Source of the DNA: Melampsora larici-populina 98AG31 | Taxonomy: Eukaryota; Basidiomycota; Pucciniomycetes; Pucciniales; Melampsoraceae | Assembly: GCF_000204055.1 (NCBI RefSeq) | Contig: NW_006768766.1 | Span: forward strand, 22,233 to 86,232 | Reading direction: 5' to 3' | Length of the DNA: 64,000 bases | Part shown: positions 4,688 to 57,294 of the stretch, in pieces | How positions within the stretch are numbered: the stretch's first letter is position 1 | Layout of the letters: every line of letters begins with the position of its first letter | The notes under the pieces: generated by a model | The model's input: the letters and a program-made list of their open reading frames with translations, nothing else | Database searches by the model: none | What the model was told of the DNA's origin: nothing | Translations under genes and position numbers: made by a program

Positions 4688-4696
4688 CTTATTAGC
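4688..4696. repeat. 9-bp target-site duplication, left copy (CTTATTAGC)
   Basis: CTTATTAGC sits directly outside the left terminal inverted repeat and recurs exactly at 11007-11015 outside the right one. A 9-bp duplication is the size typical of Mutator-like and some other cut-and-paste transposons. Confidence 0.9.
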
Positions 4697-4975
4697 CGAA
4701 CTTAACAAAGTCCCTCGCATGCGGTAAAACCCGGAGCCTGCGTAGGGACTTACGCCCAATGTGCTTATGCTCGCGTGAGCGGTCATGAGATTTAATAGGG
4801 AGAAAATGGACCCAATGAAAAACTTTCGTTAAACGAAAGCTTTTCGATTTTCCTTTTGAGACATAAAAGTCTGGCCTCTTGCGGACCAGACCCTCAATTC
4901 AGATCTTCCGTAACTTGAGCCATGCTCAAGTTTTCATTGCCATCCAAAAAGCTGATTTTCAAATTTCAAAAACCA
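4697..4975 (+). repeat. left terminal inverted repeat of the helicase/DUF6589 element
   Basis: 279 bp, starting CGAACTTAAC. The outer 160 bp (4697-4856) match the reverse complement of 10847-11006 exactly. An inner segment of about 50 bp is diverged, and the last 60 bp are again nearly identical. Five hairpins lie in order: 4708-4719 with 4739-4751; 4769-4780; 4823-4839; 4869-4874 with 4886-4891; 4914-4920 with 4924-4930. Confidence 0.9.
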
Positions 4976-5150
4976 ACTGCGGTTGAAGACATTACACAAA
5001 TGGGCAAAATCATTTACCGATTCGGCGAAAACCAGGAATGGGTTACAAGAGGTCTCTCTGAAATCCGAGAGCCAAACCGTTTATAGCATTGATTGAAGAT
5101 TCCTGTTGGGTTTTCCGAGCTGTTCTTTCTGCAATTCATCATCTTAAACA

Positions 5151-7770
5151 ATGCAAACGCGAGCCGATAGAAAACGTGCGGAAGTCGTGGCAGCCGCTAT
5201 CCGAGGCGCACCGACGACGTCGACCGAGCTGCTACGCCATAACAAGCCTCCTTTACCACTTGCACTGCAAAACATGAACCTTGAAGAGCAAACAGACTAT
5301 GTTACCAAGCGCTTCAGAGAAATCTTTGGAGTCGAACCAAGAAGCCTCCAAGTCAAGGCTGTTGTGTGCTTGATCAACGGAGATAATACCTTTCTACTCG
5401 CTGCGACTGGGTACGGAAAGACACGAATCGCAGAGATGTATTATCATCTTTTTGATGAATCTCAATTACCTGTAGTTCTGGTTTTAAATCCTCTTGATTC
5501 ACTCGGAGACAATCAGGTGGGTACTGGAGGCTGTTGAAGATGTTGCAAAATATCTTCAAGCTGATCAAATGTGATTAATCAGGTCTTGGAGAAAAAAGGT
5601 CGTATCTCAGCAATCAACTTGACCAAGAGATCCATGACTCCCGAAGTGATCAGACAACTCAAAAAAGGGTTTTACCGCTTTGTTTACTTGGTGAGATAGA
5701 ATGAAGTACCTCTAATTCGGTATGAACAATGTTTGCTAATGTAAGATTCTGATAATGTAATTAATTAGGGGCCGGAGATATTTTTAAACTCTGAAGCCTT
5801 CGAAGAGATATATAATAGCATCAACTTCCAGTCTCAACTCATCTTGAAGGTCGTTGATGAAGCTCACATGATCTACATGTGGGGCTTGGTCGCTAGCGGG
5901 CCAGGAAAGCTACTGACGACTTTTAAAAATTCTCAAGATATTGGGTGCTTCAGACCAGCCTACGGAAACTTATGTGACCAACTAATGGCAACTGAGAACG
6001 TGGCAATTCTTCTGATGTCAGCAACCTGTCGACCAGTGGCAATTCGAATGATTCTAGGAAGTTTGAAGATCACACCATATAACATTACCATCCTTCAAGG
6101 AGAACTAACACGACCTGAGATTCGTCTTGTTCGAGTAGATCTAGCATTCCCCCAGCCCACAGCACAAGACATTGGGCGTTTGGTAGCTCACAAATCGGTT
6201 CTCACCAATGAGGAGCTTCCGGTAACAATCGTTTACTCAAGAACACAAGATGCTACCTTGAACGTGATGGCGATGGCTCAATTGGCTCGTGGAACTCCTG
6301 AAGACTTACCAAACGGAGCTAGCAGTTTCATTCGAAGGTACCATGCAATTACTGGTGCAAAAGATAAGGAAAAACGTGCAAAAGACTTTGTGGATGGTCA
6401 TTTTCCTTGGATGTCAAGCACTTCAGCCCTTGGACTCGGTTCGAATTGGAAGGCGGTCAGTTGTGTGGTGGTAGTCGGTCGAATGGATCCGTCAACCATA
6501 ACACAGATGGTTGGCCGTGCGGGTCGCTCTGGTAATCATGGTTTAGGCATCATGTTTGTTGAACCAAACCGTCCGAGTGGGAAAAACAAGATTTCAGAGT
6601 TTGAAGAGGGAAAAGAGATGGGAGATGACGAAAGGATGGATGCTTTAGCAATTACACCTGTCTGTCTTCGTGTAGCTTTATCTATAGACAACTTGTAAGT
6701 TTGACTTTGAATAGTCTTTGACAAATGCGATGTTTTCTGATAAATTGTGATTGGCGAGGGCCTTCAGGTTTGGATACATTCCTCTGTCGGTGGACGACAG
6801 TAGATATAAGGAAGAGATAGCTCGCCAGCAAGCAGCATGGATGCCAAACTGCACCTGCTCAAACTGCGAGCCTGAAGGAGCAGTCCAACTTATCAACGCA
6901 TTTCGAAAGACTTCAAAGTCGGATCTGAGTCATCTGATCTCCACGCCTGTTCTCGATCTATCAAACCCACTAGAATCAACTTTACCCTACTTGTGGTATC
7001 CTCCAAAGCTTGTAGTCTCAACCATCAAGCCATTAATATGTAAAAAAGACGACCCAATTCGACTCAAAGAAGATTTTGTAGAGCTTGCAGTATCTCTAGT
7101 TGGTCACTTTGAAATTCTTTATCGCAAATCACCTCTGAAGAATTGTGGTGTGGCTCCAGATGTATTATTCAATCGAGAACATGCTTGGCTCATTGTGAAG
7201 AATTATAAATTAATTTTAGACGGCTTGTGTTTACGTAAACTTTTAGGAAGCCAAGCTGTTCCAGGTATTTTTCAAATGATCAATACTTGCATTCAATTAT
7301 GGTTACATTCAGATGCCTACGCACATTTAGAATTGGAGATGGACATGGCTCAAGTAGAGGAAGACCAAAATTACTTGGATGACATGTTAATTGAAGCAGA
7401 ATACGAAGCTGAAAAACAAGTTCAACTCCTTAGGAAAGCAGACGAGGCAAGAGCAGTTGAAGCACGTAAAGCTGCACGTTTAGAGAAGGCTGCTGAGAAA
7501 TATGAAAAAGAGGAACTCGCGCGCGAAAGCCGACGTAAGAAGATGGAAGGAAAACAGACTGTTGTTAGAGATGTGATGACAAGTCATGAGGTATGCCATT
7601 TCACGTGGATCTACTGTTACAAGTATTCTTCATTAACTTCTGTGTCAATGGCTGAAGAGCTAAACCGAGTGACTTCAGCAAGCGGTCCACCTAATTTAAA
7701 CTTATTGTACTTATTTTTTCGTGCTTCTTCAGTGAGGATGTTTTGGAACTGTGTGATTCCCAAGGTGTAA
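5151..7770 (+). CDS. RecQ-like superfamily 2 DEAH helicase of the TIR element
   Basis: ATP-dependent SF2 helicase. In-frame exons: 5151-5516, 5583-5690, 5769-6694 and 6768 onward; introns 5517-5582, 5691-5768 and 6695-6767 are GT-AG. Motifs: Walker A AATGYGKT (residues about 85-91), DEAH (188-191), SAT (242-244) and arginine-finger motif VI QMVGRAGRSG (404-413), in the usual RecQ order. After the helicase core come a Cys pair cluster (MPNCTCSNC) and a long Glu/Lys/Ala-rich probable coiled coil (about 7330-7570). Up to 800 aa if read to 7770. The true C terminus is uncertain, because the last 154 bp overlap the end of the antisense DUF6589 gene and a donor-like GTATGC occurs at 7591. The start at 5151 is the first Met of the open frame; Met at 5274 is an alternative. 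No HRDC domain seen. Confidence 0.85.
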
Positions 7771-10526
7771 AAGTCTTTGTTGTATTCGATATTGGGTATT
7801 GGGCGGTTGGTTTTGCAAATCTCAGGATCAGTGAGGTGGTCGCGAGCCATACGCATGAAGAGAAGGAGTGACCGATCAGTGATTATGATTGATTTGCTCT
7901 GATATATGTCTTTCAGACCAGTGCGTAGTTTGAGCCGATGCATTGTCTGTCGCATCTATTACAATCGATCAATGAGGAAAGATGTTAATCAAATGTAGGG
8001 TTCAGACAAATTTCACTGAACTTACCAAGGGTATATTGACCGAGTAGCGATCTGTGAGCTTTTGTATGTCGGTTCCCTGGCCCTAGAGTCATCCAAGATT
8101 GATTTGTTAACTTTAAACAGAATGAAATTGAACTAGATTGACGTACTGAATGGTTGTAGAAGTATTTCAACCAATAATTCTGCATCTCCAAGTAAAAGTC
8201 TTTCGCGACAAAATGACCAGCTCGTCCACTTGGGCATACTAAAAGTGAGTGTCGGAGGGCTCGACCAACACTTGGTGGTAGGTACTCTTCCAGTAGAAGA
8301 ATGTAACGAGGAAGAGCAAGTGCATAGTTGCCCATTCCTTCCATCCCTTGAGCAAGAATTGCCCAACGCTTCCACATAAGCATCATTCGACCCACATCTC
8401 CCTGCCGCATAGCTCTATCAGCTTCAACTAATGACGAAAAGTCTCTAATTCGAAGTTTCATATTATGTAAGTTACCATCTTGTACGTGAGACGCCTCATC
8501 ACGAGATTCTTCAGAGCAGTATCTGAAGTAACATTCTTCAACAAGAGCTTCGGCCACGCCCTCCTCAGCTAGGTTTAAAGGTGTGTCCTTTGAAGCGATC
8601 AGTTGACTACAGTGACCATTCAAAGAAGATCCAAGTCAGTCAATCTTGAATTGCGGGACAAAAAATAAAAGGTTTTTACATACTGTAGCAAGAAAACAAG
8701 AGTCGATATGTGGACTTTATGTACAATTTCCATTATCGAACTAAAATCTTTCTTTGAAACAGGCTTTTCAGATGTTCCACCAAGTGCTACCCAAGATTTC
8801 CATGCGCCTGTATCAGAAGAATCTTTTGGATCTCCCCAATGCTTCAAAAGAACTGTCTGGCTAACATTCCATAGAGTATGTGCAGCTCCAAGCATAGTTA
8901 GAAGTTCTTCGTGAGCTTCATCCTTATGCTCAGCAGGAAAAGATTTCGCAATCAAACTCTGAATATTCTTACAAGTGCCGTGATCCCCTTCAATAACCCG
9001 AAGCTTTGAGGCGTATTCTTCTTCCGAAAGACCACTCTGTAAACGCAGCTGTTCAAGCATTTCAGCTACACCACCTGCTGAATCGTCTGAAGCTGCCATC
9101 ATCTTGAACATCATGATATCTGGGTTTTCGATTGGAATCTGGTCAATTACTGGAGGTGACATTGCTAGATTCTTGCTACAGTATTTGTGGGCTGGACTAT
9201 CTTTTTCGACAACATGACGAAGTAATGCAGTCACAATTTGAGCCTTGATTGCACATTTCCAATGTTCACTTTCGGCCTCATTGGGTAAGAAGTTATACAA
9301 TTCAATCGGAGCAGTTTCACTTGCTTTCATGGCGGCCTGGAACGATTCGACACTGGCTTCTTCAGGATTGATTTCCTTCTGTAAGTGCTCAGGTAAGAAA
9401 TGAGCATAAGCCCAGCTGCCGTGGTGAATCTTCGATTTTTCATCAACTCGGGTGTGATGAACTCGTTTCATTATGTCAATGTTGTCGGCGGTGACTAATG
9501 GTTGGAAAACATAATCTAGAGAAGCTCGATATCGAAGAATCTCTTCAGTCCTTTTTTTTAAAGTAAGCATACATCTGTTGGCGGTTGCAGAACTTGAGGT
9601 GAGTCCCAAAGAATGAAGATAGTCATGAACCCGTTGTGGAACACCACTGGCGAGAAAAGTGACTGAGTTGAGCAGGCCTAGTCCATTGTGACGTCGATTA
9701 CAGGCTAGTCCGACCATGGAGCAGAGAGTCATGGGGATGTGTGTTGACTGGAAGTTGTTTCTAGTCTCAAGTTCAGTCTCCCGAGTGTAGGCAACATCTT
9801 CACGGGCGTCAAGCAAGTTTGCAGGATCTGTGATACTGTCATTGGTGTTGGCCAAATCCTTGTCGGGTTCAAGTTCGATTTCGGAATCAGAATCGTTGTC
9901 TTCTTTGGCTGTAGGATTTGTCTCAGAGCGCTTTCGTTTCCGTTCGACCTCTGAGTCTCTTCGTGTTTTTTTTTGCAGCTGGCCATCTTTAATTTTTGCT
10001 TGGATGAGATTGTACAGAAATGACATGTGTTGACTAATTTCACATCCTCTTTTTTCTTCATTCTCTTTGTCAAAGAAGCCGTGGTCAATTTCCTTAGAGC
10101 TGTAATAAGAGCCACCTGGGGCCTTGCCACTGGGCATCGACTGAGAATTCACTATTTTTTGAGCCTGATGCATGCCAATTAACCGAGGAAAAGAGAGAGG
10201 TCAGTCTACCCATCAGATCCAAGATGAGTCCCTATTCTCCTAACCTCTTCTAATATGAAAGAATCCCATAGCGCTGTTCCACTGGTTGAAGATTGTGCAA
10301 GTCTTTTAATTGTTCTCATAAGCCGAGTAGTTGAAGGCCAGCCTGATTTTGTTGCCCAAAAGCGCCGGCGAGTGGCCAAGTTAGAGTCTTGACATTCAAG
10401 AAATGTTTGAATGAACTTCTTTGGATCGAAGGAAGGTATTTTATCAATAACTTCGCATACTTGAATAACCCGAGTTTTGTTTATAGGCTGATGTGACTCA
10501 GCAGGTGCTGAAGTCATTAATTGCAA
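7617..10526 (-). CDS. DUF6589 protein, candidate transposase of the TIR element
   Basis: Five exons join in phase: 10526-10245, 10164-8684, 8606-8147, 8082-8026 and 7955-7617, with four GT-AG introns of 64-80 nt, giving 872 aa without internal stops. The order of blocks fits the large basidiomycete DUF6589 family as I remember it: TADNID (about residues 319-324), a long helical region, then EGDHGT (about 486-491), AAHTLWNVSQ, GDPKDSSDTGAW and a C-terminal GQGTDIQKLTDRYSVNIPL. The conserved acidic motifs resemble the spacing of an RNase H-fold DDE/DDD nuclease; that is inference. An acidic/basic low-complexity linker (KRKRSE...DSDSEIE) lies near residues 160-195, with a likely nuclear-localisation cluster. 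It is convergent with the helicase and overlaps its 3' end. Confidence 0.82.
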
Positions 10527-10727
10527 TGGTTCGAGGTGAAGGTGTCAAATCAGAAAGATGTTGTTAAGTTGGTCAACAGGTAGGCAACATATTTTACTTG
10601 ATCAAATTGGCACAAGAAATTTCATTCTACCACAAGTTCACGAATCACAACCCATGATTCTGCTACAGTTGGGATTAAATCTGCTATGTAACAATTTTAT
10701 CCATCTCGCAGCAGCGGTTGAATTCCG

Positions 10728-11006
10728 TGGTTTTTGAAATTTGAAAATCAGCTTTTTAGATGGCAATGAAAACTTGAGCATGGCTCAAGATATGGAAAAT
10801 TTGAATCGAGGGTCCTACTTGGAAGAAGTAGGATGTTGATTGCTTCAAAGGAAAATCGAAAAGCTTTCGTTTAACGAAAGTTTTTCATTGGGTCCATTTT
10901 CTCCCTATTAAATCTCATGACCGCTCACGCGAGCATAAGCACATTGGGCGTAAGTCCCTACGCAGGCTCCGGGTTTTACCGCATGCGAGGGACTTTGTTA
11001 AGTTCG
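10728..11006 (-). repeat. right terminal inverted repeat of the helicase/DUF6589 element
   Basis: Reverse-complement partner of 4697-4975 and also 279 bp. It carries the same chain of hairpins. The fourth hairpin is built from a different sequence (TCCTACTT at 10813-10820 pairing with AAGTAGGA at 10826-10833, loop GGAAG). Confidence 0.9.
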
Positions 11007-11015
11007 CTTATTAGC
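11007..11015. repeat. 9-bp target-site duplication, right copy (CTTATTAGC)
   Basis: Exact copy of 4688-4696 immediately outside the right TIR. Confidence 0.9.
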
Positions 11016-11787: not shown

Positions 11788-14157
11788 CTAGTAGTAACCA
11801 AATCTTCTAGCACCAACTCTATCCTTATCCTAAAAAAAGTTCAAAAAAAATCAAAGTCAATATTTCATTAAATCCCGGAAACACATACCCATCTGATGAA
11901 AAAATGATAAAAACCAAAGGTTTAAGACTCACTAAACAATCTCTACATCCAACTTTTCCAGAACTTTGAAAAGTTTTAGCACCTGAATCCAATGCTTTAC
12001 CACACCTTTCACATTTCAAACATCTAGTATGCCATCTTTGATTCATAGGTCCAATCTTGGTTTCTTGAATCGTACCTGGTTTCAAACAGCCTGGACAAAC
12101 ACTTTGTCCTCCTAATCTTCTTCCTATACCTCCTCCTCCCCCTCCTGTTCCAATACAACTTTCAGAAGTTGATAGGAATGGTGAGCTTGATACTTTCTTA
12201 GCTGCTATGAGTGCACCTCCTACTACGGGAAATGATGGTTGAAGATGTCCAATCTTCTCCCTTAATTCTTTTAATCTAAGTTCAGCTGCTTGAACCTCTT
12301 TAATCTCAACGCACCTCTCACACAATTTCAAATCGTCATATAGTACATATTTACCTTCTTCGAATCCTCCGTCACATCCATCACACCTTAAACATTCCAA
12401 ATGAAAGGTTTCGCCGGTCGTAGGTAAGGTTGCAAGTGTTGTTGCACCAGGTGCGTGAGAAGCGAAGAGAGGTAATGAGCACTTCGTACACATCGGATTT
12501 GTCGAAGGTGAGAGTGGCAGTGCACGGGTAGATGATTTAATATTCGGTATGCTCGCGTTCTTGTCTGTCATAGTGGCACTGCTTTGACGCGGCTTCATGG
12601 GACTTGCTAAAGATCTAATTGAAAGTGGACGAGTAGGTTTGAGAGGATACAGCGGGACAGAACTCTTCAAGGGTGAGGAGGAGCGTGGAAGAGATGGTGA
12701 GGAGCGATCAGAGGCCATTGTGTTGGCTGAAAATGAAGTGGTGAGCGGACGAGGAGTTCGTCTATGGACGTCATTCGCTATGCTAGCTGATGCAGAAGTC
12801 GATAGTGGTCGAGGACGAGTGAATTGGTTATGGGTAACTAGTGGCGTAGGTGAAATTGAGAGTGGTCGAGTAGGCTGTAGCTGATTACGGGTGATCGTAC
12901 CCGTGGAAGCCGAGGTCGGAAGGGGACTAGTAGGTTGTAGACGATTGTGAGTCACTGGACTCATTGACCGTGAAGCTGAGAGTTTCGGTGCAGGTGTAGG
13001 GACTTTCTCGATTCCAGCCTTTTGCAGCTTACTTCTCAATTCTTCAACTGCTGGTCTCAAAGCCTTAGTAGCTGGTGAATCCATAGTTCTTTTGATGTTA
13101 GGTTTGTCACGAAGATCTGGAATATCAGTAACCATCGATGTTGCGGATTTTCTCGTTGGTCGATCGAAACATTCATCGCAACACGGATCACCTCCTAAGT
13201 TTACTGAGGGAGAGGCTGAGATATCTATCGAGCAGTGTACACATTTGAAACATTTCTGTTGATAGATTAAAAAACACGCAATAAGTTTCTCAATGAAGTT
13301 GACTATGGAGAAGAGAAAAGTAGAACCTTGTGCCAAAAACCACGAGAACCACCTTTCCCAAGTTGAATAAAACCTTCATCACCCACTACGACTTTCTCAC
13401 AAGCTGTACAATTCCCACGACTAAAGAGTTTGATATAACAATTACGACAATAAAAGACACCGGCCCAATCACCTGATGATAAATCATCACGTCTGGGATC
13501 CGGGTAAATTTTACCTTCTCGTTTGAAAACCTCTGAGCAAGCCCCACATCGACCTCTCGTTTCGTTTGGATCAAGAACTGAACCAAACACATTGGTTAAA
13601 ACCTCTTCTTCGGCTGCTGATAGATCAATCGAATCGGGTATGTTGGCAGTTAATGAGCGTACGTGAGCCCTTGCTGATGATTTGACTGATAATCCACGTT
13701 TGGGGGTAGGATCCGAGGGTGTAGATGGTTGAGGTTCTTTGAGTGGAGTAGGTGGTGTTACGATTCGAAGTGGAATTGATGTGATGTTCATATCTTGAGC
13801 AGTGAGACTTTTACGATTTGGAGTAGATTGATTCGCAGTGATAGGAACAGGGGCAGATGATTTAGGTAGTTGAATTACTTCGGATGGTTGAGTAGTTTGA
13901 GCTCGTGTGTTATTGGAGATCGAGTTACGTTTTTCGCCATAAGTCTTGAGCCAACGATCAGGTTTGGTAGGTTCGAATAAAGCACGAGAGACTTGTGAAG
14001 CTGCAGTTTTTAATCAGAAAGAGTTAAGACGATGATTAGATATCAGAGATGAAAAAGATGAAAGAGATTCAAACTGACATGCACTACTTCCACCACATTT
14101 ACACCGCGTCTCAGCACCTCTGATGATATCACCACACCTTTTACAAAACCCAGCCAT
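11788..14157 (-). CDS. LIM-domain protein with Ser/Pro-rich linker
   Basis: Four exons (14157-14079, 14000-13327, 13255-11933, 11829-11788) joined by GT-AG introns of 71-103 nt give 705 aa. The N terminus has a short zinc-binding motif (CKRCGD...RCKCGG). LIM-type modules follow: CGACSEVF...FYCRNCY / CTACEKVV...FWHKKCFKCVHC...CCDEC around residues 150-280; CTKC...FHLECLRCDGCDGGF...CERC; and C-terminal CPGC...RWHTRCLKCERCGKAL...CRDC. Between them is about 200 aa of Ser/Pro/Thr-rich, probably disordered sequence with repeated (T/R)RPLS and MSPVTHN-like phrases. LIM proteins of this kind are zinc-dependent adaptors, often at actin or sites of polarised growth. The tail after the last LIM is only DKDRVGARRFGYY. 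Start chosen at the ATG at 14157 because it opens with the Cys motif. Confidence 0.85.
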
Positions 14158-21710: not shown

Positions 21711-21903
21711 TGTTAAGGTCTTGTCTCAGGGGATCTGGGTTCGAGGGAGGAATGAAGGATTAGGACCAAGCAATCTACGTTTGTTATTCAGATTGTCGGA
21801 TGAGGAAAGAGTTCTACAAGTGACGTAATACAAGTTATAAATACGCTTCTTGCGTGACATCTCTCATCTCTTTCACATGTGTTACATATATGAGATTGTA
21901 ACA
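21711..21903 (-). repeat. 3' LTR of the Ty3/gypsy element
   Basis: 193 bp, identical by eye to 27880-28072. Preceded by the target duplication AGAAG. Confidence 0.97.
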
Positions 21904-21917
21904 TTATCCCCCTTTTA
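21904..21917 (-). promoter_or_regulatory. polypurine tract of the Ty3/gypsy element
   Basis: On the element strand the bases abutting the 3' LTR are TAAAAGGGGGATAA, the expected purine-rich primer for plus-strand DNA synthesis. Confidence 0.75.
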
Positions 21918-21997
21918 ATGCCCAAACTCCCTTTTGCGAGTTCTGCATTCTTTCCCTGGGTAGCATTAAAAAACCCTGTGGGAAAAAGCTTACCCAC

Positions 21998-24900
21998 TCA
22001 CTTTCTCCGTTGCCTTTTGCATCTTGATGATAATGTAGTAAACCTTCTATCAAAATCATTAACCAATTCCTTACTGTTTGATAAATTTCGTAAAGGTTCC
22101 CATGAATTATGATTTGAATTATAACCCTCCCAATTCACTAAATATTCTAATGATTTACCCCTCCTCCTACGATCTAATATCTCTGCTACTTCGAATTCTT
22201 CTTCACCGTCAATAATAATTGGTGGAGGTTCTAATTGTTTTCTTTGAGGGATGCTGTCGGTTATGTGTTTCCTAAGCAATGACACGTGAAAAACCGGATG
22301 AATCCTCTTCATAGAAATTGGGAGATCAAGTTTGTAAGCTGAATTTGACACCCTTTTAATAATAGTAAAAGGACCTAGCCATCTGTGTTCCAATTTGGGG
22401 CTGGGTCGTGTCGTGGAAATATTTTTCCCGTTTAACCACACCTGATCACCAATGTTCCATTCCGGTGTGTCTCTGACATGTCTGTCGAATTGCTTCTTCA
22501 TCGTCTCCTGAGCAATATCAAGATAGTGTGTCAGTTCACGTTGGACTTCTTCAATCATTTTCAACCTATCTTCAACCACCGGGATACATTGGTCTGCACA
22601 TGGCACTCTGTTAAACGTCGGATTGAACCCATAGTTTGCTTTAAAAGGTGAAATACCCGTCGATTCGTGATCGCGATTGTTGTAAGCAAATTCAGCCGTT
22701 GGTAGTAAGGCTTCCCAGTTGCCCTGTTGATACTCGACGAAATGTCTTAGGTACTGTTCAATTGACTTATTAACAATTTCACTTTGTCCATCAGTTCGTG
22801 GGTGATACGCCGTGGAAGGGTGTAGCCGAATTCCCAGTCTCTTATCCAACTCTTGGGTGATTTGAGATACGAAAATGGTTCCACGATCTGAAACAATACT
22901 TTTAGGAGTACCGTGTAGCTTCCAAACGTTTTGAATCATAATGTCAGCTAAGTCATTCGCTGTCATGGTCTCTTTACATGGCAGAAAATGGGCCATTTTG
23001 GTCATGCGGTCAACCACCGTTAGTATACTATCAAAGCCTCTTGACTTGGGTAGCTTCGTAATCAGGTCGTAAGTGATGTCCGTCCATGGGCCTGCTGGAG
23101 TTGGCAAAGGCTCCAGCGTTCCGAATGGTTTTGTCGTGTTAGACTTGACTCGTAGACATGAGTCGCATCCGTCAACATACCTGTTCACGTAGGCTTTCAT
23201 CGATGGCCACGTGAAACACCGTCGAACAAGACTTAACGTCTTTGCTCGGCCCGGGTGACCTGATAAGAGACTATCGTGACGACTCTTGACAATCATAAAT
23301 TTAATATCATCATCATGTGGTACTTCAATCCTACCCCTGTTGTATAATACCCCGTCCTTTTCTTCAAAATGATTTGATGCCTTCTTAAATTTAACTGATA
23401 TAGGATTTTTAATTGCTGAAATCAATTCGATAATTCTCTCATCTGATTTACTTGCAGTTCGTATTAAATCAATAATGTCGTTGTCCGTCTTGAATTCAGA
23501 TGAGTCGTCTACGGTTTCGGCGTCCTCAGGAATGTCAGTTATTTGAGTGTTGGATACACCCAGCACATCAATTTCAAACCAGCGCTCGGAATCCTCCAGA
23601 TCGATAGTTTCGTCCTCAAAAAATGCCTCACAAGCAGCAAGTTCAGCCGGGAATGAGTCAGAGTCGATATTTTCAGGCCGCAGTAGGTGTCCGAATGTCC
23701 ATTTTTCGCTTTCATCCGGTGCCAAATCAGGACGTCGTGATAATGCATCAGGTTTTCCCGCTGTTCGCCCAGGTCTGAATCTAATGACGAAATCAAAACA
23801 TCCCATAGTTTCAGCCCAACGTGCCTGTCTTCTGGTGAGCTGTTTGGTTGTCATAAAAGACTCTAAGTTTTTGTGATCCGTATACACAATCACTTCCAAC
23901 CTGTTAGGGTTACCCTCTAAATAATGTCGCCACTCCTTAAAGGAGGCCACAATAGCTAGCAACTCTTTGTCAAAAATTTCGTAATTGCGCTCCGCTTGAA
24001 CTAAGGATCTAGAAAGATAAGCCACGGGGTGAATTTCACCATCCTTCTCGCACCGTTGAGATAATACAGCACCCAATGCGAAATCCGAACAATCACATTC
24101 GAGAATGAATGGTTTGTAAGGATCTGCAATCTTGAGGATCGGGGCGGTTGTAAAGGATGTCTTCAATGATTCAAAAGCCTCATTACATTTCGTATCCCAT
24201 ATGAAAGGAGTCTTCAGTTTCGTTAGATTATGCAAAGGTCGTGTAGTTTTAGAAAAGTGGTCTATAAAACGGCGGTAAAAATTAGAAAATCCAATGAATC
24301 TTTGAAGTTCGGTAACGTTGCGTGGCGCCGGCCAATCTCTGACAGCTTTAACCTTGGTGGGATCCATCTTGATTCTGTTCTTCGAAATTAGGAGACCAAG
24401 ATATTCAATTTCGTCTTTTGAGAATTCACACTTCTCCGGTTTAATCCAGAGGTCGTGTTTGCTTAGTATATCAAGAACTCCATCCACTGCTTCCTCATGA
24501 TGCACGTCCTTCTTTGTATAAATCATCGTATCATCCAGGTAAGCAGCGGTGTCTTTACCAATCCTTCCCAGTAATATGTCCTGGATGAAGTACTGGAAGT
24601 GTCCTGGAGCTCCCGTCGGTCCAAAAGGCAAGGTCAGGGGGGCGAATTGCCCATGTTTACAAATAAACGCAAGTATATCTTCGTGGCCTTCAGCAACACG
24701 AAGATTACCATATGCGTTACGCAGGTCCAACTTAGTGTATTTCTCCGCGTCCAAAAGGCTGTCCACTAAATCCATTGTCAGTGGAAGAGGATATTTATTC
24801 TTCACTGTCAATGAATTTAGCTTCCTGTAATCGAAGCATGGCCTCAGATTACCATCCTTCTTCCCGGTGAAGAGTACCGGGGCAGCCCAAGGAGATGTCG

Positions 24901-26440
24901 TTCGCCGAATGGTCCCATTTGCCAGGCCCTCGTCGATCATCTTCTGAAGTACCTCATTTTCAGCCGGAGATAATGGTATAATCTTGCTAGCTTGAGGTTG
25001 GGCGCCAGGCACGAGTTCCACCTTAAAATCGTATTTTCGCCTCGGAGGTAATCGTTGCGAGTTAGACTTGCGAAACATATGTAAGTGACGATGATAATAA
25101 GACGGAACCATCTCCTCGACTGCTTTAACTGGTTCTTGAAGCTTTAAATCAGCAGCTAATCGTGCTGACGTCGACCACGATGTCTTTGCGGGGGCGAGTT
25201 CGAATGTATGACTATTCAGGAGAGGATCATACTGGCGAGCTGTTTCAACAGTACAGGTGGAAGGAGAAATGTCGAACTCACATCGCGGGGGCGTAATTGT
25301 ATCACCAAGATTACAGGCCCCCTCGTCACTATTCCTAGCGTGCCCCTTTGGCTTCTCTGCGAGATCCTCTGGGGATTGTGGCGGACTGGACGAAACTGAA
25401 TCATCAGTTGCAATGTGGACCATTGGGCTTGTGTTAATCGGTTGGACGCAAGATGTCGGGATTGACTGCATATCGGATGTCTGAACTGGATGAATATCGG
25501 GTGTCTGGTGTTGTGATTCAGTAAAGAAGCAGGGCTTGCTAGCTGTTTCAATAGGTAAAGGGACAACTGCACGGTCGAACTCACATTGCGGGGATGCTAA
25601 CGTATCATTCCTGATACACATCCCCTCGTCATATTTCCTAGCATGCCCCTCTGGCTTCTCGTCGAGATCCTTGGGGGACTGAGGCGGAACAGACGAAGCT
25701 GAGCAATCAGCTGCAATGTAAGGTGTGTCCTGTAAGTGAAAGGAGGGGATCGAGTCGTCCATAGTACGTCTGGTCATCTGTGATTTAGGGGGCAAAGGAT
25801 GCTTGCCAGCGGTTTCAAAAGAAATTGGATGATTGTCGGAAACACACTCACATTGCGGGGATGCTAATGTATCAGAATTGGTACACATCCCCTCGTCAAA
25901 GCACCTAGCGTCCCTTACGGGGTCCATTCCCAGATCCGGTAAGGGTGTTGTCGGGCAAGACGAAACTGCAGATGCAGCCGCAATGCAATGGTCAAAGTCT
26001 TGAACTTGTCCAGTCTTCCAATTAATTAAGTTAAAATTCTCCTTAATCCAAGGTATACCCAGTATACCATCATAAGTATCCTTAACTCTAGTAATAATAA
26101 ATCTGGTCGGTAATGAATTGTTCTTGATGTGTAGGTCAATCTCATAAGATGAATTGCTTTGCGAGCCGTCGAATCCGGTAACCACTCTTGTAGTGCGTTC
26201 GGAAAAAGGGATTAAACCTGATTTACTCGCAAGGGACTCACTCAGCACATTATGAGTTGCGCCGGAGTCAATCAGGAGAAGGGAGTCAATTGGGGAATCT
26301 GTTGGTGTGGCTCGGGGAAAGTGGGACAAAGAAAGTGTAGTACGCAAAAACAGTCGAGGATCATCTGCATTGCAAGGCATAATTTTACTAGCACCTAATT
26401 GAATGTCCACTAAATCCCTATGTTGGCTCAGGATAGGCAC
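21998..26440 (-). CDS. pol: Pol polyprotein (protease, RT, RNase H, integrase, chromodomain)
   Basis: About 1480 aa from a GTG at 26440; no ATG is near, and the frame is open upstream to the slippery site at 26464-26470, so it is probably made as Gag-Pol. Order: aspartic protease with LLLIDSGATHNV (Asp at about residue 58); a spacer of three degenerate repeats (DEG.C...DT..P.CE); RT with catalytic YLDD encoded at 24530-24541; RNase H (ECDCSDFALGAVLSQ ... YTDHKNLE); integrase with an H-H-C-C zinc finger (GHPG...CDSCLRVK) and D..D..E core (DRMTKM, VSDRGTIF, GQSEIVNKS); and a chromodomain near the end (FEVAEILDRRRRG...YLVNWEGY...NSWEP). The chromodomain places it among chromoviruses, which often target heterochromatin. 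All catalytic residues checked are present, so the copy may be active. Confidence 0.97.
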   Translation of the reverse strand: MPILSQHRDLVDIQLGASKIMPCNADDPRLFLRTTLSLSHFPRATPTDSPIDSLLLIDSGATHNVLSESLASKSGLIPFSERTTRVVTGFDGSQSNSSYEIDLHIKNNSLPTRFIITRVKDTYDGILGIPWIKENFNLINWKTGQVQDFDHCIAAASAVSSCPTTPLPDLGMDPVRDARCFDEGMCTNSDTLASPQCECVSDNHPISFETAGKHPLPPKSQMTRRTMDDSIPSFHLQDTPYIAADCSASSVPPQSPKDLDEKPEGHARKYDEGMCIRNDTLASPQCEFDRAVVPLPIETASKPCFFTESQHQTPDIHPVQTSDMQSIPTSCVQPINTSPMVHIATDDSVSSSPPQSPEDLAEKPKGHARNSDEGACNLGDTITPPRCEFDISPSTCTVETARQYDPLLNSHTFELAPAKTSWSTSARLAADLKLQEPVKAVEEMVPSYYHRHLHMFRKSNSQRLPPRRKYDFKVELVPGAQPQASKIIPLSPAENEVLQKMIDEGLANGTIRRTTSPWAAPVLFTGKKDGNLRPCFDYRKLNSLTVKNKYPLPLTMDLVDSLLDAEKYTKLDLRNAYGNLRVAEGHEDILAFICKHGQFAPLTLPFGPTGAPGHFQYFIQDILLGRIGKDTAAYLDDTMIYTKKDVHHEEAVDGVLDILSKHDLWIKPEKCEFSKDEIEYLGLLISKNRIKMDPTKVKAVRDWPAPRNVTELQRFIGFSNFYRRFIDHFSKTTRPLHNLTKLKTPFIWDTKCNEAFESLKTSFTTAPILKIADPYKPFILECDCSDFALGAVLSQRCEKDGEIHPVAYLSRSLVQAERNYEIFDKELLAIVASFKEWRHYLEGNPNRLEVIVYTDHKNLESFMTTKQLTRRQARWAETMGCFDFVIRFRPGRTAGKPDALSRRPDLAPDESEKWTFGHLLRPENIDSDSFPAELAACEAFFEDETIDLEDSERWFEIDVLGVSNTQITDIPEDAETVDDSSEFKTDNDIIDLIRTASKSDERIIELISAIKNPISVKFKKASNHFEEKDGVLYNRGRIEVPHDDDIKFMIVKSRHDSLLSGHPGRAKTLSLVRRCFTWPSMKAYVNRYVDGCDSCLRVKSNTTKPFGTLEPLPTPAGPWTDITYDLITKLPKSRGFDSILTVVDRMTKMAHFLPCKETMTANDLADIMIQNVWKLHGTPKSIVSDRGTIFVSQITQELDKRLGIRLHPSTAYHPRTDGQSEIVNKSIEQYLRHFVEYQQGNWEALLPTAEFAYNNRDHESTGISPFKANYGFNPTFNRVPCADQCIPVVEDRLKMIEEVQRELTHYLDIAQETMKKQFDRHVRDTPEWNIGDQVWLNGKNISTTRPSPKLEHRWLGPFTIIKRVSNSAYKLDLPISMKRIHPVFHVSLLRKHITDSIPQRKQLEPPPIIIDGEEEFEVAEILDRRRRGKSLEYLVNWEGYNSNHNSWEPLRNLSNSKELVNDFDRRFTTLSSRCKRQRRK

Positions 26441-26445
26441 AACCG

Positions 26446-27525
26446 TCAGTCCTGAGCTACGCCATTTTTTGAAATATCAGATCTACTACCCCCTTCTTGC
26501 TTATCCATATAAATTGAATCTCTACTACCCATAGCCGCCACTTTCGCTTCTAATTCAGCAAACTTATTTTTAAAATTAACAAAACCACTTGATCTCCCTT
26601 TGCCTTTAGCATCTTTCTTCTTGTTAGGACAAGCACTCGCAAGATGACCCTGAACATTACAAATGAAACAAGACCCTGTTTTTAACCGTTTAGTGCGTTC
26701 TTCGTCAGTGAGTCGAACGAAGCTGGACGAGATGTCCATCGCATTGGGGTCAACAGTAGGAACGTGAAAGGTAGTAGAAGTATCAGAAGCTCCATGTAAC
26801 TTGCTGTCGATCTTAATAGCAAGGTTGGCGATTTGTTCTAAACTGGTGAACACGTCCTGAGTCATGACCATCGCTACTCTAATTTCCTTCTTTAACCCCT
26901 GTTCATAATGACTAATAAGGGTCGGAACCTCCCAGCCAGTAGCCGTTGCGTGCATATTAAATTCATGCGTATATGCCGCGACAGAAGTCTTCTGAGAAAG
27001 ATTACGTAAAGCCCTCTCGGCTTTCGATTTCTTCTCGGTATCGAAATACATAGCTCGGAAGTTGGTCAAAAAACGATCGAACGTCACAAGATGAGCCGTG
27101 GAAGCGTCGAGTAATTCGGTCATGAGCGGCTGGGCCCAGTTACTGGCAGTACCTGTGAGGTATGACAAGGCAAACACCACTTTGCTCCTATCATCGATGA
27201 ATTGATAGGGATGAGCAAGTAAGTAAAGTTGGATTTGACTAAGGAAAATTTCGGCAGGCGCTCCTCTGATGCCTCCAAATTTATCTGGCGTCGACACCTT
27301 AGGCCCTTTGGGATTAGGTGCGAGCTCAGCGTGGACGTGCGTAGTGGTAGCAGTCGGCGCCGGAGGAGGTTGTGAGGTCTGATTCTGTCGAGCCATCATT
27401 TCGGCCAGGCGGCTCTCTGCATCGCGCGATCGAGCTTCCGCCTGCTCACGCAAAGTGCGTTCGTTGGTCAGAGAGTTAGACAACTCGTTGAGCTGCCGTT
27501 GGATGTCTTCCATACTCATACTCAT
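26446..27525 (-). CDS. gag: Gag capsid/nucleocapsid protein of the Ty3/gypsy element
   Basis: 359 aa starting MSMSMEDIQRQ. An N-terminal heptad-rich coiled coil (about residues 5-45) is followed by the Ty3-type capsid domain (IFLSQIQLYLLAHPY...FDRFLTNFRAMYFD). A C-terminal CCHC zinc knuckle (CFICNVQGHLASAC) binds RNA. It ends in GVAQD with a TGA stop; the pol frame overlaps it by slipping back one base. Confidence 0.95.
   Translation of the reverse strand: MSMSMEDIQRQLNELSNSLTNERTLREQAEARSRDAESRLAEMMARQNQTSQPPPAPTATTTHVHAELAPNPKGPKVSTPDKFGGIRGAPAEIFLSQIQLYLLAHPYQFIDDRSKVVFALSYLTGTASNWAQPLMTELLDASTAHLVTFDRFLTNFRAMYFDTEKKSKAERALRNLSQKTSVAAYTHEFNMHATATGWEVPTLISHYEQGLKKEIRVAMVMTQDVFTSLEQIANLAIKIDSKLHGASDTSTTFHVPTVDPNAMDISSSFVRLTDEERTKRLKTGSCFICNVQGHLASACPNKKKDAKGKGRSSGFVNFKNKFAELEAKVAAMGSRDSIYMDKQEGGSRSDISKNGVAQD
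26464..26470 (-). promoter_or_regulatory. candidate -1 programmed ribosomal frameshift site (A AAA AAT)
   Basis: On the coding strand the gag codons TCA AAA AAT contain the heptamer A AAA AAT, which fits X XXY YYZ. It lies 15 nt before the gag stop codon. The -1 frame is open from here straight into pol. Confidence 0.6.
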
Positions 27526-27868
27526 CGGCGTCTCAGATTCAGGTGGCGGTTCGAGAGCGAGAGTTTGGTGATCGGCGTCAAAGAAAGAATGCGAAGCTTC
27601 GGAATCCGAATCAGCCTCTCCGAGTTGTGGGGTTCTGTACGAAGGTGACGTGGTGGCGGTTTCAGTATAAATGAAGTTCTAATAATCTAAACTATGTAGT
27701 TCAATAAGTTCGGTAGTTCAATCTGAGATAATGTAAGTTTAAGTTCGTTGTTCAATCAATCTATATGGTTTCAGTTCAATTCTAACTCTAATATAAATTT
27801 TAATCTGATTCTTCTTCTGATTCAATTTCTTTCGATTCGGTTTCGTTTCCTTGATTCCCGTAGTTTAG

Positions 27869-27878
27869 ATCCGACAAT
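27869..27878 (-). promoter_or_regulatory. primer-binding site, self-complementary to the element's own 5' transcript end
   Basis: On the element strand ATTGTCGGAT begins two bases after the 5' LTR. Its exact complement ATCCGACAAT lies inside the LTR (27970-27961), about 33 nt downstream of a TATA-like TATTTATAA, i.e. at the predicted mRNA 5' end. This is the arrangement of Tf1-type self-priming retrotransposons. Confidence 0.6.
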
Positions 27879-27879
27879 A

Positions 27880-28072
27880 TGTTAAGGTCTTGTCTCAGGG
27901 GATCTGGGTTCGAGGGAGGAATGAAGGATTAGGACCAAGCAATCTACGTTTGTTATTCAGATTGTCGGATGAGGAAAGAGTTCTACAAGTGACGTAATAC
28001 AAGTTATAAATACGCTTCTTGCGTGACATCTCTCATCTCTTTCACATGTGTTACATATATGAGATTGTAACA
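27880..28072 (-). repeat. 5' LTR of the Ty3/gypsy element
   Basis: 193 bp, identical by eye to the other LTR. Contains a TATA-like element (28012-28004 on the minus strand) and the predicted transcription start near 27970. Followed on the outside by AGAAG. Confidence 0.95.
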
Positions 28073-44124: not shown

Positions 44125-46415
44125 ATGACATTGTCGAAGCCCTCAAAGAACCAGAACGGATCAGTGGATTGCCTTTGTTTTAATCCATGTAGAAAGTTAT
44201 TGAATAGTAAATTCGAATGTTATAAGGTTCGTAAGCATTTTGATTCAGCTTGAAAATTGCTATGACCGACTGACTAATCTGATCCTGTCTCACTCAGCTT
44301 AAACAATACGATGAAGGAAACATACATCGCTTCAAGCTACCCAAACAATATAATCCAACCATCGAACATAAGCGCATCAGTTTCAATTCAGATGAATTGA
44401 AATTAGAATCTAGAGAAAACCATCTATTGTCGGGTCTCTTCCCTTCAGATCGTCATGATGTCGAATCGGACCCTTCCGTCTCTCAGGCCGAATTATTGGA
44501 GCCACAATTGATTTGGATAGACCGAACTGACTTACAAATCTGGTCAGTTGTGTTCAATTCTGTGAGCCACTCATAGTTTCTATATTTTTTGGTTAATCAA
44601 GCTTTTAGGATCTAACAACTTGTATACTTTTCATAGCCCAGTAACCTCGAAGATCTTGAAATCCTACCTCTGTCAACACTCCCGGACTCGCGTCATGAAG
44701 CAGGTCTAGAGGATAAGATGATTGAAGAAATCGAACTTGATACGCCTACAGCTGTAGCCATGCCACCGACTTGGTCTTGCAAATCTGGAAATTCGAAGCC
44801 TTGGTTAATTTCAGATGGNNNNNNNNNNNNNNNNNNNNNNNNNNNNNNNNNNNNNNNNNNNNNNNNNNNNNNNNNNNNNNNNNNNNNNNNNNNNNNNNNN
44901 NNNNNNNNNNNNNNNNNNCAGATACACCTATTCGAGCTACGAGTATCACCAGTGATGTGTGATGGGGATGATCCGCCTCTTTTCGACCTCCATCTAATCC
45001 CATTGGCTGAACTGACGGGACAGCATGATTTGATTCTGGTCGAATTCGATCCAGCTTACAAGAGGTGGTGCTTTGCTTCTCGTTCAAAATTTGTCATCGC
45101 TCAGTCCCAGTCCGATGAAGTCAAATCACATGAGACTCTACATCAGATCACCCAAGAACCAACTAGCGAGGTCTTACCCGAATCGCCTATCCCACCTCCG
45201 TACAGCTGGTCACAAACTTCCACAACATTGACGATTCAATTTCCGATTCCCGAACAACTTCCTACGAAATCCTTTAACCTTATTTTTGACGCCAATCAAA
45301 TTACTTTAAAACTTCAATCAACCTCTTTGACAACAGATTTGGCAAAGAAGTTTGATCAATATATCCGTACTCTCTTCAAATACTTCAAAACGTCTATTGA
45401 TTCATCCTCTTCATCAGCTCTACTTCGACTTGAGCTTTGGGATCAAATTCAACCCAAGGACTCACTTTGGTATACGAATACTTCAGATCAAGGTCATACT
45501 ACTCTTACGATAGAGCTCGAAAAACGACACGAGCTACGTTGGCCACAAGCCTTTAAATCTGATGATCAACTCGATCAAGTCTTTGATCCAGCTGACTATG
45601 AAGCCATTCGATCCAGGCTCGAAAAGTATACAACTGATCTAGATCTAGATAGCAGTCTAAGCTCCATTCAAAAACAAAAACAAGGTCTCGGTGCTATACC
45701 TATCACTGGATCTACTTCGGGCCAACCACCTTCTACAGGTTTGGGTGGTAAGCATATCGGTCTAAGTAATGCCGAAGTGGATGATGAGATTGATTCGGGA
45801 AATCAGAGTCAAAGTCTTGGAGCGGTCTTTACATGGTTAAGTCCAGTGAATGGTGATGAATCATTGGAATCGAAACCTCATTGGATCACAATCACACCTC
45901 ATGAGATGATACCAGTGGAGATTATCTCTAGAAGCTTACCGGTTCATAATCTCGAACCTGAAATCCCAAGTTCCAACCTATCAAGATCATCGATCATGAT
46001 TAAGAATGATATAGACGGACTTGTATTTGAGTCACCTATCAGTTCGACTCGATCGATGTCACCTGTTTATCAATGGGATCATATTCAAACCATTCCTGCT
46101 ATGTCATTTGTGATGGCATCAAAACGAGATATAAGATTAAGTTGTTATACAGAAGATCAAACGATCATCTTTGAAGATTCACGTGTATCCATGGATGATG
46201 AAGGTAAACAACAGATTGGAAATATGATGATTTATTATCATTCGAAACATTCAAAATCAATTCAATTAGATCAATCTGTTATTAAACTGAATCAAACCCC
46301 ATGTGGATCTTTGATTGGAGTGATCGGTTTGAGAAACCATCGTCAAGATCATTCAAATGGTTTAATCATGGTTTGTTTATGTGAAAAAGAAATAATTATA
46401 TGTAAGAATTTATAA
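44125..46415 (+). CDS. NUDCD1: NudC domain-containing protein 1 (NUDCD1-like), interrupted by an assembly gap
   Basis: Exon 1 44125-44226 (MTLSKPSKNQNG...CRKLLNSKFECYK), exon 2 44298-44561 and exon 3 44637-46415 join in phase. The N terminus matches the NUDCD1 pattern (xLLxxKFExYKL, then a beta-propeller-like region with ISFNSDELKLESRENHL). A CS domain, the p23/NudC-type Hsp90-cochaperone fold, follows at PPYSWSQTSTTLTIQFPIPE...FNLIFDANQITLKL. NudC proteins assist folding of WD40 proteins and dynein regulators. The start at 44125 is the in-frame ATG that opens the conserved N terminus. The 100-N gap falls in exon 3, so its length there is unknown and an intron may be hidden. Confidence 0.8.
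44819..44918. other. assembly gap, exactly 100 N
   Basis: A run of 100 N is the conventional placeholder for a scaffold gap of unknown size. It lies inside the NUDCD1-like gene. Confidence 0.99.
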
Positions 46416-53058: not shown

Positions 53059-53535
53059 TATAAAGGTGAAAGCTGTAGGAAGCACGAAGTGTTCTCAGCA
53101 AAGAGTGGAGAACACGAGTCAAGTAAAGTGAAGTACCTTTAGGAAGCACGAAGTGTTCTCAGCAAAGAGTGGAGAACACGAGTCAAGTAAAGTGAAGTAC
53201 CTGATGGTAAGAGAAACAAAAGAATAAGAATGGATTACTAAAGTAATATCATCAACTCATAAAGACAAACCTTTAGGAAGCACGAAGTGTTCTCAGCAAA
53301 GAGTGGAGAACACGAGTCAAGTAAAGTGAAGTACCTGATGGTACGAGAAACAAAAGAATAAGAATGGATGAAGAAGGAAAAACAAGAGGAAGAATCATTC
53401 ATTCTTATATGTGTAGATTCTTGTATAACCATGGTACAAGAAATGGATTGTAGAAGGAAGCAAAAAGTAACAACGTCATAGGATAATTGATTATGATGTC
53501 ATGACTAAAAACAGAGAGAATTAATTATCTTTATA
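53059..53535 (-). repeat. 3' LTR of the copia element with internal triplication
   Basis: Contains three copies of a 63-64-bp word starting TAGGAAGCACGAAG (53076, 53140, 53274), each with the 8-bp hairpin arms GTGTTCTC/GAGAACAC. A second repeated word is GAGAAACAAAAGAATAAG. It differs from the other LTR at about half a dozen positions, including a one-base length difference. Confidence 0.92.
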
Positions 53536-53566
53536 CCCCCCCTGCTTCTAAAAACCATTTCTTCCA

Positions 53567-56500
53567 TTACTTGTTGATGTTCATGCTTGTTACACAACGG
53601 TTGTGAAGAATTCGCGATAGTGATTTAGTAAAGATATCGGCCGTCATGTCCGAAGTTGGTTTGTATGTCAACAAAAATTTACCCTTGAGTAGTTGTTCTC
53701 TGATCCAGTGATACTGGATCTCGATGTGTTTAGTGCGAGAGCGAAAGATTGGATTTGTCGCCAAAGCGATACAGCCTTGATTGTCACTAAACAAAGGAAT
53801 GGTGTCAGGGACAGGAATGTTCAAGTCTTTGAAGATGGTGTCCAGCCACAGGAGTTCTTGAGCGGCCTCTACAACTGATTTGTATTCGGCTTCAGTTGTG
53901 GACAGGGAGACAACTGGCTGTTTTTTCGTTCTCCAACTGATTGGCCCACCAAAAAGCATGAATAGGTAGCCAGAAGTCGATCGTTGAGAATCGGTACAAC
54001 CGGCGCAGTCAGAATCCGCCAAGTTAACGGGGACAGAGTAGGCGAGAGAACCAGCCACGGGATCTGGAGAACTGTAGTTCAGGCAGTAAGATGAAGTGCC
54101 ACGGAGATATCGGAGAAGGCGATGAAATGCTGCCCAGTGTTCAGTGCCGGGCTTTTCAAGGTGTTGAGAAAGTTGAGAGCAAACGAAGGCCAAATCAGGG
54201 CGAGTGCATTGAACGAGATAGTTGACAGATCCTACGGCTTGGCAATAGTTTAGGCCTTTAGCAAGAAAAGCATTGATTGAAGCTTCATCAGCCTTAGTAA
54301 GACATGTGTTCGGAACCATTGGAGTTGATACAGAAGCACAATTAGCCATCCCGTAGGTTTTGAGGAGATTCTCGACGTAGTTCTCCTGCGATAGAGAGAT
54401 GGTGCGTTTGGCGCGATTGCGGGTGATCTTCATGCCCAGGATGGAAGTAGCAGGACCCAAGTTGTCCATGTTGAATTCCTTCGAAATGAGTGATTTGAAC
54501 AATCGGATACCTTCTTTTGAGCCAGTGATCGTTAAGTCATTGACGTGAACATGTACGTAGCATGGTTCAGCCTCGTTGAGACTGATGAATAAGCAAGGAT
54601 CCGCTAAAGAAGCACGGAAGTTGATCTTTTTGAAGAAGAAGACAAGTTTGAAGTACCAGCAGCGCGGAGACTGCTTCAAGCCATAGAGAGATTTGTGAAG
54701 AACTAGAACCGTACGAGCAGTACGATTTGCTACACAAAGACCTTGAGGGATTTGGAGGTAGATGACCTCGTCTGGAACGCCATTCAAAAACGCGGCAATT
54801 GCGTCCATTTGTTCAACGTCGTAGTCATTGGCGGCAGCAACACCCAGAAATACCCGAAGCGTAGACTTACATCCAGTAGGAGCATACGTTTCTTGATAAT
54901 CGACGTTGTGAACTTGAGAAAACCCTTGTGCGCACAAGCGGGCCTTGAATTTGACGAAGCGTCCGTCGGCATCGTTCTTCACTTTATAGACCCATGTGGT
55001 ACCTATAGCTGTGCATCCCTCAGGCAATTTGACCACAGACCAGACGTTTTGACGAGCCATGTTGTCAAGCTCAGTGTTCATCGCAGCCATCCACTCATCT
55101 GCCAAAGGACCGCGCAGAGCCTGATTGAAGGATTTCGGGGAGGAATTATCAGTACTTGCCAAATTAGCCCGGCGGCGGGTAGTGATGATGTTATTGGGAC
55201 TGATAGAAGAAGATATATCTCGAGGAGCGACAGAGGAATGGGGTTCGTAGTACCAGCGAGCTTGGTCGGGAGGTAGCGGAAGCATAGACGAGGTATCAGG
55301 GCTTACATCTCCAAGAGTGTCAATGGGATGATAATCGTCATCCGATTTGTCACCGGCGGAAGTGATTGGTGCCGAGTCTTCAGTATTGTCCTCAACTGGA
55401 GATGGTGAGGAGGAAGAAGAGGATACATTCAATGAAGACATAGGGCTGTCAGAAGGAGTTAATCCATGACTAGGAATTTCGGACGAAGAGTTAGGCGAAG
55501 GAGTCAATCCGTGAGATGGAATGGAATCAACATCTGACGGAACAGGAACAACAGAGTCGATTGAAGAGACATCAGAGTTGTAGGAAATTGTGACATCAGG
55601 TTGCGAAGACATTGGTGAGACAGGTGGGATGGAGGGTAGATCTTCAAGTAACTGGTTGAGATCAGGCGGCGCTTTAAAAGGAGTGGAACGAGAAAAATCC
55701 TCTTCATTGAAGATGACGTCATGTGAATAGACCACTTTGTTTTGCTCGTAATCCCACAGGCAATAATTGTGCAATCGCTCTTGATAACCCAGCAATAGAC
55801 ATTTTTTAGAGACTCGGCTAAATTTGGAAAGTCTAAGTTGTTTGGGGATCAGGGGATAAGCAGCGCATCCGAAAACATGAAGGTGACCAAGGGTTGGAAG
55901 CTTGCCGGTCCACATTTCAAAGGGCGTTTTATAGCCAATGCTAGCTTCAGGGCATCGATTTTCAATGTACACAGCTGTGCTAACAGCTTCACCCCAAAAT
56001 TTGTTGGGTAAACCCGCGTCGATCAACATACATCTGGCTCTCTCTGTGGTTGTTCTGTTGCCTCGCTCCGAAATAGCATTTTGCTGTGGAGTATAGGGTG
56101 CAGTAAAGTCGGAGGAGATACCATGCTCACGGAGATACGAAAGAAACTCATTTGAAACGTATTCACCACCATTATCGTTTACGAGACGCTTAATGCACAG
56201 GTTGAGTTGTTTTTCAACTAAGAGTTTAAATTGCACGAAATAAGAGAAAGCTTCGGACTTGTGTTTCAGGATGAAAACATGTTTATACTTCGTATAACCA
56301 TCTGTGAGTTTGAAGTAGTATCTGCCACCTCCAATTGATTCAGGAGAAATGTGACCACTCAAGTCGCTATGGATGACTTCTAAAGGAGCTGAGGGCCTAG
56401 GCAGGGTACCCGAGAAAGGTAAACGGTGATGTTTGCTTAAGATACAAGTAGGACAGGATGAAAACTTAGATAGAGAAGAATTGAATAATAATGTCATGTA

Positions 56501-57261
56501 GCGATGGTTTAGATGACCGAGCCGTCTATGTAATAAGAATTACGAGTCAGAAGAAAGTGGCGGTGCCGAAAGAGCTAGAGCAAACGACTTGCCTAAGTTG
56601 ACATCAAGAACGAAAATTCCATTGGAGATAGAACCAGTTAGAGCAACTTTCTTGTCCTTGAGTAAAGCGAATGCTCCATTCCCGCTATTAGCAAGTTCAA
56701 AACCTTTAGAGAACATCTGAGAGAGACTAATAAGGTTGCTTGTTAAAGATGGAATGTGAAGAGCATTAGCGAAGGAGAGTTCTGAGTTAGGGCCTTTCAA
56801 GGTGACTGTTCCTTTTCCAACAGATTGTATGGCGTTTCCGTCAGCGAGATAAACGTTTTCGGAGCATTCGGAGTAGTTTTTGAAAACAGATTGATCGCGA
56901 AACATAGTCACGGAAGCGCCGCTATCCAATAGACAAATCACTTTGTCCCATTTTCTTTGCACGGCAGCTAGAAGGTACGAAGTGATAGCGGGAGGACCAG
57001 GTACGATGGAAGGAAAAAATTCAGAGAAGTTTTCGCCAGTCGAGGCTACGGTAGCAGAGTGAGTCTTAGGTTTGTTTTTCAAATGAGGATGCAATTGATG
57101 ACAGCGATCAGATGGGTGAGCCGTGTCCGGATTATGTCTTCTGTTGGAACAGACAGGATAAGATGGAGTGCGATTGTTGACAGGATGATTGCGACGAGCA
57201 GTGTAAGCAGATGGTGATGAGCTAGTGTTGATGGAGACCTTCTTGTCGTTAACATATTTGT
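53567..57261 (-). pseudogene. pol: copia gag C terminus, protease, integrase, RT and RNase H (broken)
   Basis: The first part (57261-56540) holds a His/Cys-rich zinc-binding region (HNPDTAHPSDRCHQLHPH) and protease CLLDSGASVTMF. An in-frame TAA at 56542-56540 interrupts, after which the same frame continues RRLGHLNHRY...CPTC (GAG-pre-integrase zinc finger). Integrase follows (HSDLSGH, VNDNGGEY, SERGNRTTTE), then a long Ser/Pro linker and the copia-type RT (FKARLCAQGFSQ...DYQETYAPT). RNase H follows (ADSDCAGCTDSQRSTSGYLF, STTEAEYKSV, SDNQGCIALA) to the stop at 53567. The RT active site reads HVND instead of VDD, so one catalytic Asp is lost. Stop plus missense show a dead copy. Confidence 0.93.
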
Positions 57262-57294
57262 GGTACACAAATATCGTTCTGGAAATTTCCAGAA
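57262..57294 (+). repeat. left TIR of the PIF/Harbinger element
   Basis: 33 bp, exact inverted copy at 61823-61855. Immediately inside lie further GTTCTGG/CCAGAAC words in both orientations up to about 57358. Confidence 0.9.

Follow-up and report, generated by a model that had tools for sequence, protein, structure and literature searches.

Within the 64-kb window, by which we mean the whole stretch of Melampsora larici-populina DNA analysed here, we found a 6,310-bp element (4697-11006) that is likely a DNA transposon of the AcademH type, autonomous and moving by cut and paste. Judging from predicted structures, the DUF6589 protein encoded in it is very probably the transposase, of the DDE type, and it is accompanied by a RecQ-like helicase encoded on the opposite strand.

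Boundaries and genes of the element

The features of the element, with positions in the window, are:

4688..4696, no strand: left target-site duplication (TSD) CTTATTAGC, exact repeat at 11007-11015
4697..4975, + strand: left terminal inverted repeat (TIR), 279 bp, starting CGAACTTAACAAAGTCC; ungapped alignment with the right arm, related termini genome-wide
5151..7770, + strand: RecQ-like SF2 helicase gene, splice model with exons 5151-5516, 5583-5690, 5769-6694 and 6768-7770
5403-5423, 5856-5885, 6504-6527 and 6850-6867, + strand: helicase motifs Walker A, DEAH, motif VI and CxCxxC, respectively
7617..10517, - strand: DUF6589 gene, predicted DDE transposase of 869 aa, exons 10517-10245, 10164-8684, 8606-8147, 8082-8026 and 7955-7617
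9486-9484, 8985-8983 and 8188-8186, - strand: putative catalytic residues D318, D485 and E725 of the DUF6589 protein, a triad conserved in homologues
10728..11006, - strand: right TIR, 279 bp; ungapped alignment with the left arm
11007..11015, no strand: right TSD CTTATTAGC, exact repeat of the left 9-mer

The two TIR arms aligned without gaps and were identical at 255 of 279 positions; the outer 160 bp were all identical, with the first mismatch at position 161. With a 20-nt exact seed this pair was the sole inverted repeat of at least 60 nt in the window, and the 9-mer had no further occurrence in it on either strand. The alignment bears out the 279-bp TIRs and the exact 9-bp duplication of the original prediction, which had further placed two convergent, intact genes and no conventional transposase inside the element. 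Both genes contain introns, and with splice sites positioned by hand each gave a model with GT/AG introns and zero internal stops (800 aa to the first stop for the helicase), in agreement with that prediction. The 3' end of the helicase gene is uncertain and overlaps the DUF6589 gene.

The helicase protein matched the pfam domains DEAD (7.4e-11) and Helicase_C (2e-07) and, in the PDB, WRN/RecQ chains (8.7e-08); its match to the best RecQ family model (2.7e-20) scored 72.6 bits, below the model cut-off of 219.8. The DUF6589 protein was matched by PF20231 at 1.2e-68 over residues 381-773. A Pfam scan at E<=0.1 of seven ORFs within the element returned only DEAD, Helicase_C, ResIII (below its cut-off) and DUF6589. 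No known transposase family was thus present among the matches, as predicted, and a hidden second transposase was not found in these ORFs.

Comparison with the copy on C14 gave dN/dS values of 0.17 for DUF6589 and 0.13 for the helicase, obtained by a simple count on tblastn blocks and rough because the C14 pieces hold 6 and 1 stops, which may be read-through introns or lesions. From these ratios both genes look to be under purifying selection. Among 30 helicase loci, Walker A was kept in 27, DEAH..Y.WG in 26 and GRAGR in 14, which points to possible degradation of some copies.

The window also holds a Ty3/Gypsy-like LTR element (21711-28072) with 193-nt direct repeats that are 100% identical, a pol ORF with RT, RNase H, integrase and chromodomain (21998-26476, - strand) and a gag ORF (26446-27678, - strand); it is probably a recent insertion. 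A Ty1/Copia-like element (53059-62992) has 300-nt direct repeats, 99% identical and 9.6 kb apart, with about four degenerate 64-bp units in each, an RVT_2/integrase ORF (53567-56539, - strand) and a Pol_BBD ORF (56540-57445, - strand). Probable host genes are a LIM-domain ORF (11825-13375, - strand) and a CS-domain ORF (44637-46415, + strand).

Related copies across the genome

The 98.3-Mb assembly (243 contigs) was searched for both genes. PF20231 matched 104 pieces, which merged into at least 94 DUF6589 loci, a lower bound with 102 of 248 candidates scored, and the helicase exon matched 128 places. A helicase lay within 8 kb of 83 of the 94 DUF6589 loci, where chance would give about 2. Convergent orientation was seen in 82 of these 83 pairs (82 of the 94 detected loci), which makes a related helicase a regular partner of DUF6589. 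Unpaired were 11 DUF6589 loci and 45 helicase matches. Two of the unpaired loci lie in bounded elements (C3:2807874 and C2:3656699), in each of which tblastn found both genes, the helicase pieces of the former being 36% and 25% identical. Both genes were present in 14 bounded elements of more than 5 kb, the window included, a tally that is not independent of the 82 loci because these elements were chosen mainly for gene matches between termini. In one of the 14, C3:2548481 (9.6 kb), both gene matches were on the same strand. A further bounded element, the 15th, is C4:1314934 (3.9 kb), for which neither gene was among the matches listed. Viral contigs were considered as a source of relatives, and none of 118 pattern matches there was confirmed.

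By pattern and by eye, a terminus related to that of the window was seen upstream of the helicase in 24 of 30 helicase loci. The pattern CNAACTTAACWAAGTCC, allowing up to one mismatch, had 1,103 matches genome-wide, versus 45 for the reversed control. We assembled 33 insertions with both ends. Five were the window, C14, C20, C25 and C28 copies; for the other 28 we chose by eye, from the 100 places listed out of 1,103, + and - matches lying next to each other. The duplication was exactly 9 bp in 30 of the 33; the exceptions were L099 (one base off), L095 (irregular) and C28 (none). Mismatched pairings, used as a control, gave 0 of 1,056 at 6 bp or more, and the target 9-mers had no fixed sequence.

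Eighteen short copies (69-1,324 bp) were examined, six of 69-93 bp, 11 of 570-661 bp and one of 1,324 bp, and the duplication was perfect in 16. Those of 69-93 bp (L096, L105, L107, L108, L111 and L112) are barely more than two inverted ends with perfect 9-bp duplications, and the smallest unit able to transpose can be no longer than these. The C20 copy is inserted in a repeat, and its joined flanks matched that repeat at two other places (79% and 77% identity), where the target sequence stands once at each junction. These matches are paralogous uninterrupted sites, not an allelic empty site; the joined flanks of C25 had no match across the junction.

Between copies C25 and C28, one end showed 3 differences in 1,088 bp and the other end none in 751. 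C20 equalled C25 over 1,088 bp of one end but was identical at only 649 of 685 positions at the other, which makes C20 look mosaic and suggests that copies may be so more generally. The C28 copy (G000:C28:887400-895100; L069, L070), near-identical to C25 and without a target duplication, is perhaps a product of recombination between copies. In the sister element on C14, other DNA of about 5.4 kb (G000:C14:542021-547446; L005, L092) sits inside the right TIR, despite which the element has a perfect duplication, AACAATCTG, outside.

The original prediction had pointed out that RecQ-like helicases of fungi are usually discussed as telomere-linked. A telomere-linked helicase repeat (TLH-like) in place of a transposon would fit a RecQ-like helicase in a fungus and the position of the window copy, some 27 kb into its own contig, but the element is bounded by TIRs and TSDs. 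Moreover, among the 57 pairs (from 83) on contigs of known length above 500 kb, 3 lay within 50 kb of a contig end, no more than the 3.9 or so expected. These positions rule out a telomere-linked helicase, which the dispersed insertion sites with TSDs also contradict; we regard it as extremely improbable, and the notion of telomere linkage does not apply here.

DUF6589 and the classification of the element

In AlphaFold models of two DUF6589 homologues, an all-helical insertion interrupts a core that resembles RNase H. The top structural alignments were to the P element, Hermes, ISCth4 and RAG1, with the P element as one of the two closest matches; Foldseek with the second homologue model gave nothing useful. 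The D-D-E triad was kept in DUF6589 homologues, and the predicted models combine an RNase-H fold with D, D and E at the catalytic positions, as judged from strand order and aligned ranges, as is general for DDE transposases. This comparison with RNase H-fold transposases, together with the conserved residues, supports the earlier idea that DUF6589 is a transposase. By hmmscan, 52 homologues had zero matches to Pfam transposase families at E<=1, DUF6589 being the only consistent match. In the open-licence literature we found no paper on the DUF6589 (PF20231) family.

From the TIRs, the TSDs and the fold we infer cut-and-paste transposition with a 9-bp stagger. The DUF6589 protein would bind the TIRs, and its D-D-E site in the RNase-H-like core would cut the ends; these would then be joined to the target with a 9-bp stagger, the gap being filled by host repair. 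Short copies reduced to the ends would be mobilised in trans by the same protein.

An undescribed superfamily, as originally proposed, was not supported, as the helicase-bearing DNA transposons AcademH and KolobokH are already in print. AcademH, reportedly introduced by Kojima in 2020, is said to be a helicase-encoding lineage of Academ. As far as excerpts of the published descriptions go, DEAD and Helicase_C are the domains of AcademH and KolobokH (PMC10799480), as in the SF2 helicase of the window element, and TSDs of AcademH are 9 or 10 bp (PMC10045372), here exactly 9 bp in 30 of 33 insertions. The same excerpts give animals and fungi as the range of AcademH, with low copy numbers in Basidiomycota, Ascomycota and Mucoromycota (PMC10799480); the named close relatives found here come from the rusts Melampsora and Puccinia, but at least 94 DUF6589 loci stand against the reported low copy number. 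AcademX, by contrast, has a nuclease and TSDs of 3 or 4 bp, a difference from AcademH that in the portion consulted seems tied to the encoded helicase and nuclease (PMC10045372), whereas here the TSDs are 9 bp and no nuclease was among our Pfam matches, so that AcademX does not fit. Excerpts further describe Academ as a DDE superfamily with a DDD/E transposase (PMC9587614) and as a recently identified type in a survey of rust transposons (PMC12210899). The element is thus probably a member of AcademH, assigned by published description (helicase, TSD length, host range) and not by transposase sequence. In the literature searched we found neither an earlier description of RecQ in Melampsora or basidiomycete transposons nor a report of a novel rust transposon superfamily.

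Kolobok elements duplicate TTAA (4 bp), and the 9-bp TSDs without fixed sequence ruled out KolobokH on TSD length. In the part of the source that describes it, KolobokH likewise combines a RecQ helicase with a DDE transposase in fungi (PMC9587614), but its helicase lies downstream of the transposase domain, whereas here it is a separate convergent gene.

By sequence, DUF6589 matched no PDB chain at E<=10. Its structural likeness to P element, hAT (Hermes) and IS256 (ISCth4) transposases raises the alternative of a DDE superfamily apart from Academ and structurally akin to these three. The RecQ-like helicase would then have been adopted independently as a self-supplied repair factor, the 9-bp TSD would likewise be of independent origin, and the superfamily would have expanded in rusts with 69-93-bp copies. 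P and hAT elements have 8-bp TSDs and are not known to carry a helicase. This alternative would fit the top structural alignments, the 52 homologues without a Pfam transposase match and a copy number unlike that reported for AcademH. Helicase, 9-bp TSD and basidiomycete host, however, together form the combination published for AcademH in the excerpts above, and Academ is described as a DDE superfamily as well (PMC9587614). We therefore consider a separate superfamily quite unlikely and retain the assignment to AcademH.

The helicase and RecQ genes of rusts

With less certainty than for the transposase, the RecQ-like helicase may be a dedicated accessory acting after excision or strand transfer. 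It might steer gap repair at the donor site towards restoring the copy, or it might unwind the target or the joined ends. According to an excerpt on flies, loss of BLM impaired copy-based repair after P{wa} excision and led to flanking deletions (PMC8951532). Because BLM acts there after P-element excision and the P element is a close structural match, we favour, by analogy, a role in repair or strand processing; the link between helicase or nuclease and TSD length in the excerpt cited above (PMC10045372) would also allow a role at the target.

Alternatively, the helicase could be passenger cargo without a part in transposition. Most of the 18 short copies, which keep the ends, have no room for either of the two genes, and the genes are thus not required in cis. 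Additional genes of other kinds, among them TET/JBP dioxygenases, occur in rust DNA transposons, according to an excerpt (PMC12730594). However, pairing and convergent order persist among copies with 40-55% helicase-exon identity to that of the window (C14, at 94%, aside), the pairing is kept even in the pair with 36% and 25% identity, and the helicase dN/dS is about 0.13. The pairing is probably also present in Puccinia triticina, where the DUF6589 protein PTTG_26233 and the helicase PTTG_26232 have consecutive locus tags (on contigs of the same length, 1,158,275), an adjacency suggesting that it probably predates the Melampsora-Puccinia split. Passenger status therefore appears rather unlikely, and we prefer the accessory role. 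Among the best 120 of 393 protein matches, the closest came from Melampsora americana and then mostly from Puccinia, some being unnamed metagenome proteins.

Apparently new are the function of DUF6589, the large expansion with tiny non-autonomous copies and the mobile-element account of the rust 'RecQ effector family'. A probable function as a DDE transposase is thereby given to a Pfam family that had none assigned and is abundant in this genome. Thanks to the helicase partner, one can also test whether a transposon is able to supply a BLM-like factor of its own that directs repair at the donor site. In an excerpt of earlier work, RecQ helicases are enriched in rusts and are discussed as an effector family and in terms of aggressive DNA repair (PMC9370660). 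Many rust RecQ helicase genes are probably transposon genes, and a transposon origin would be a simpler, ordinary explanation of this enrichment.
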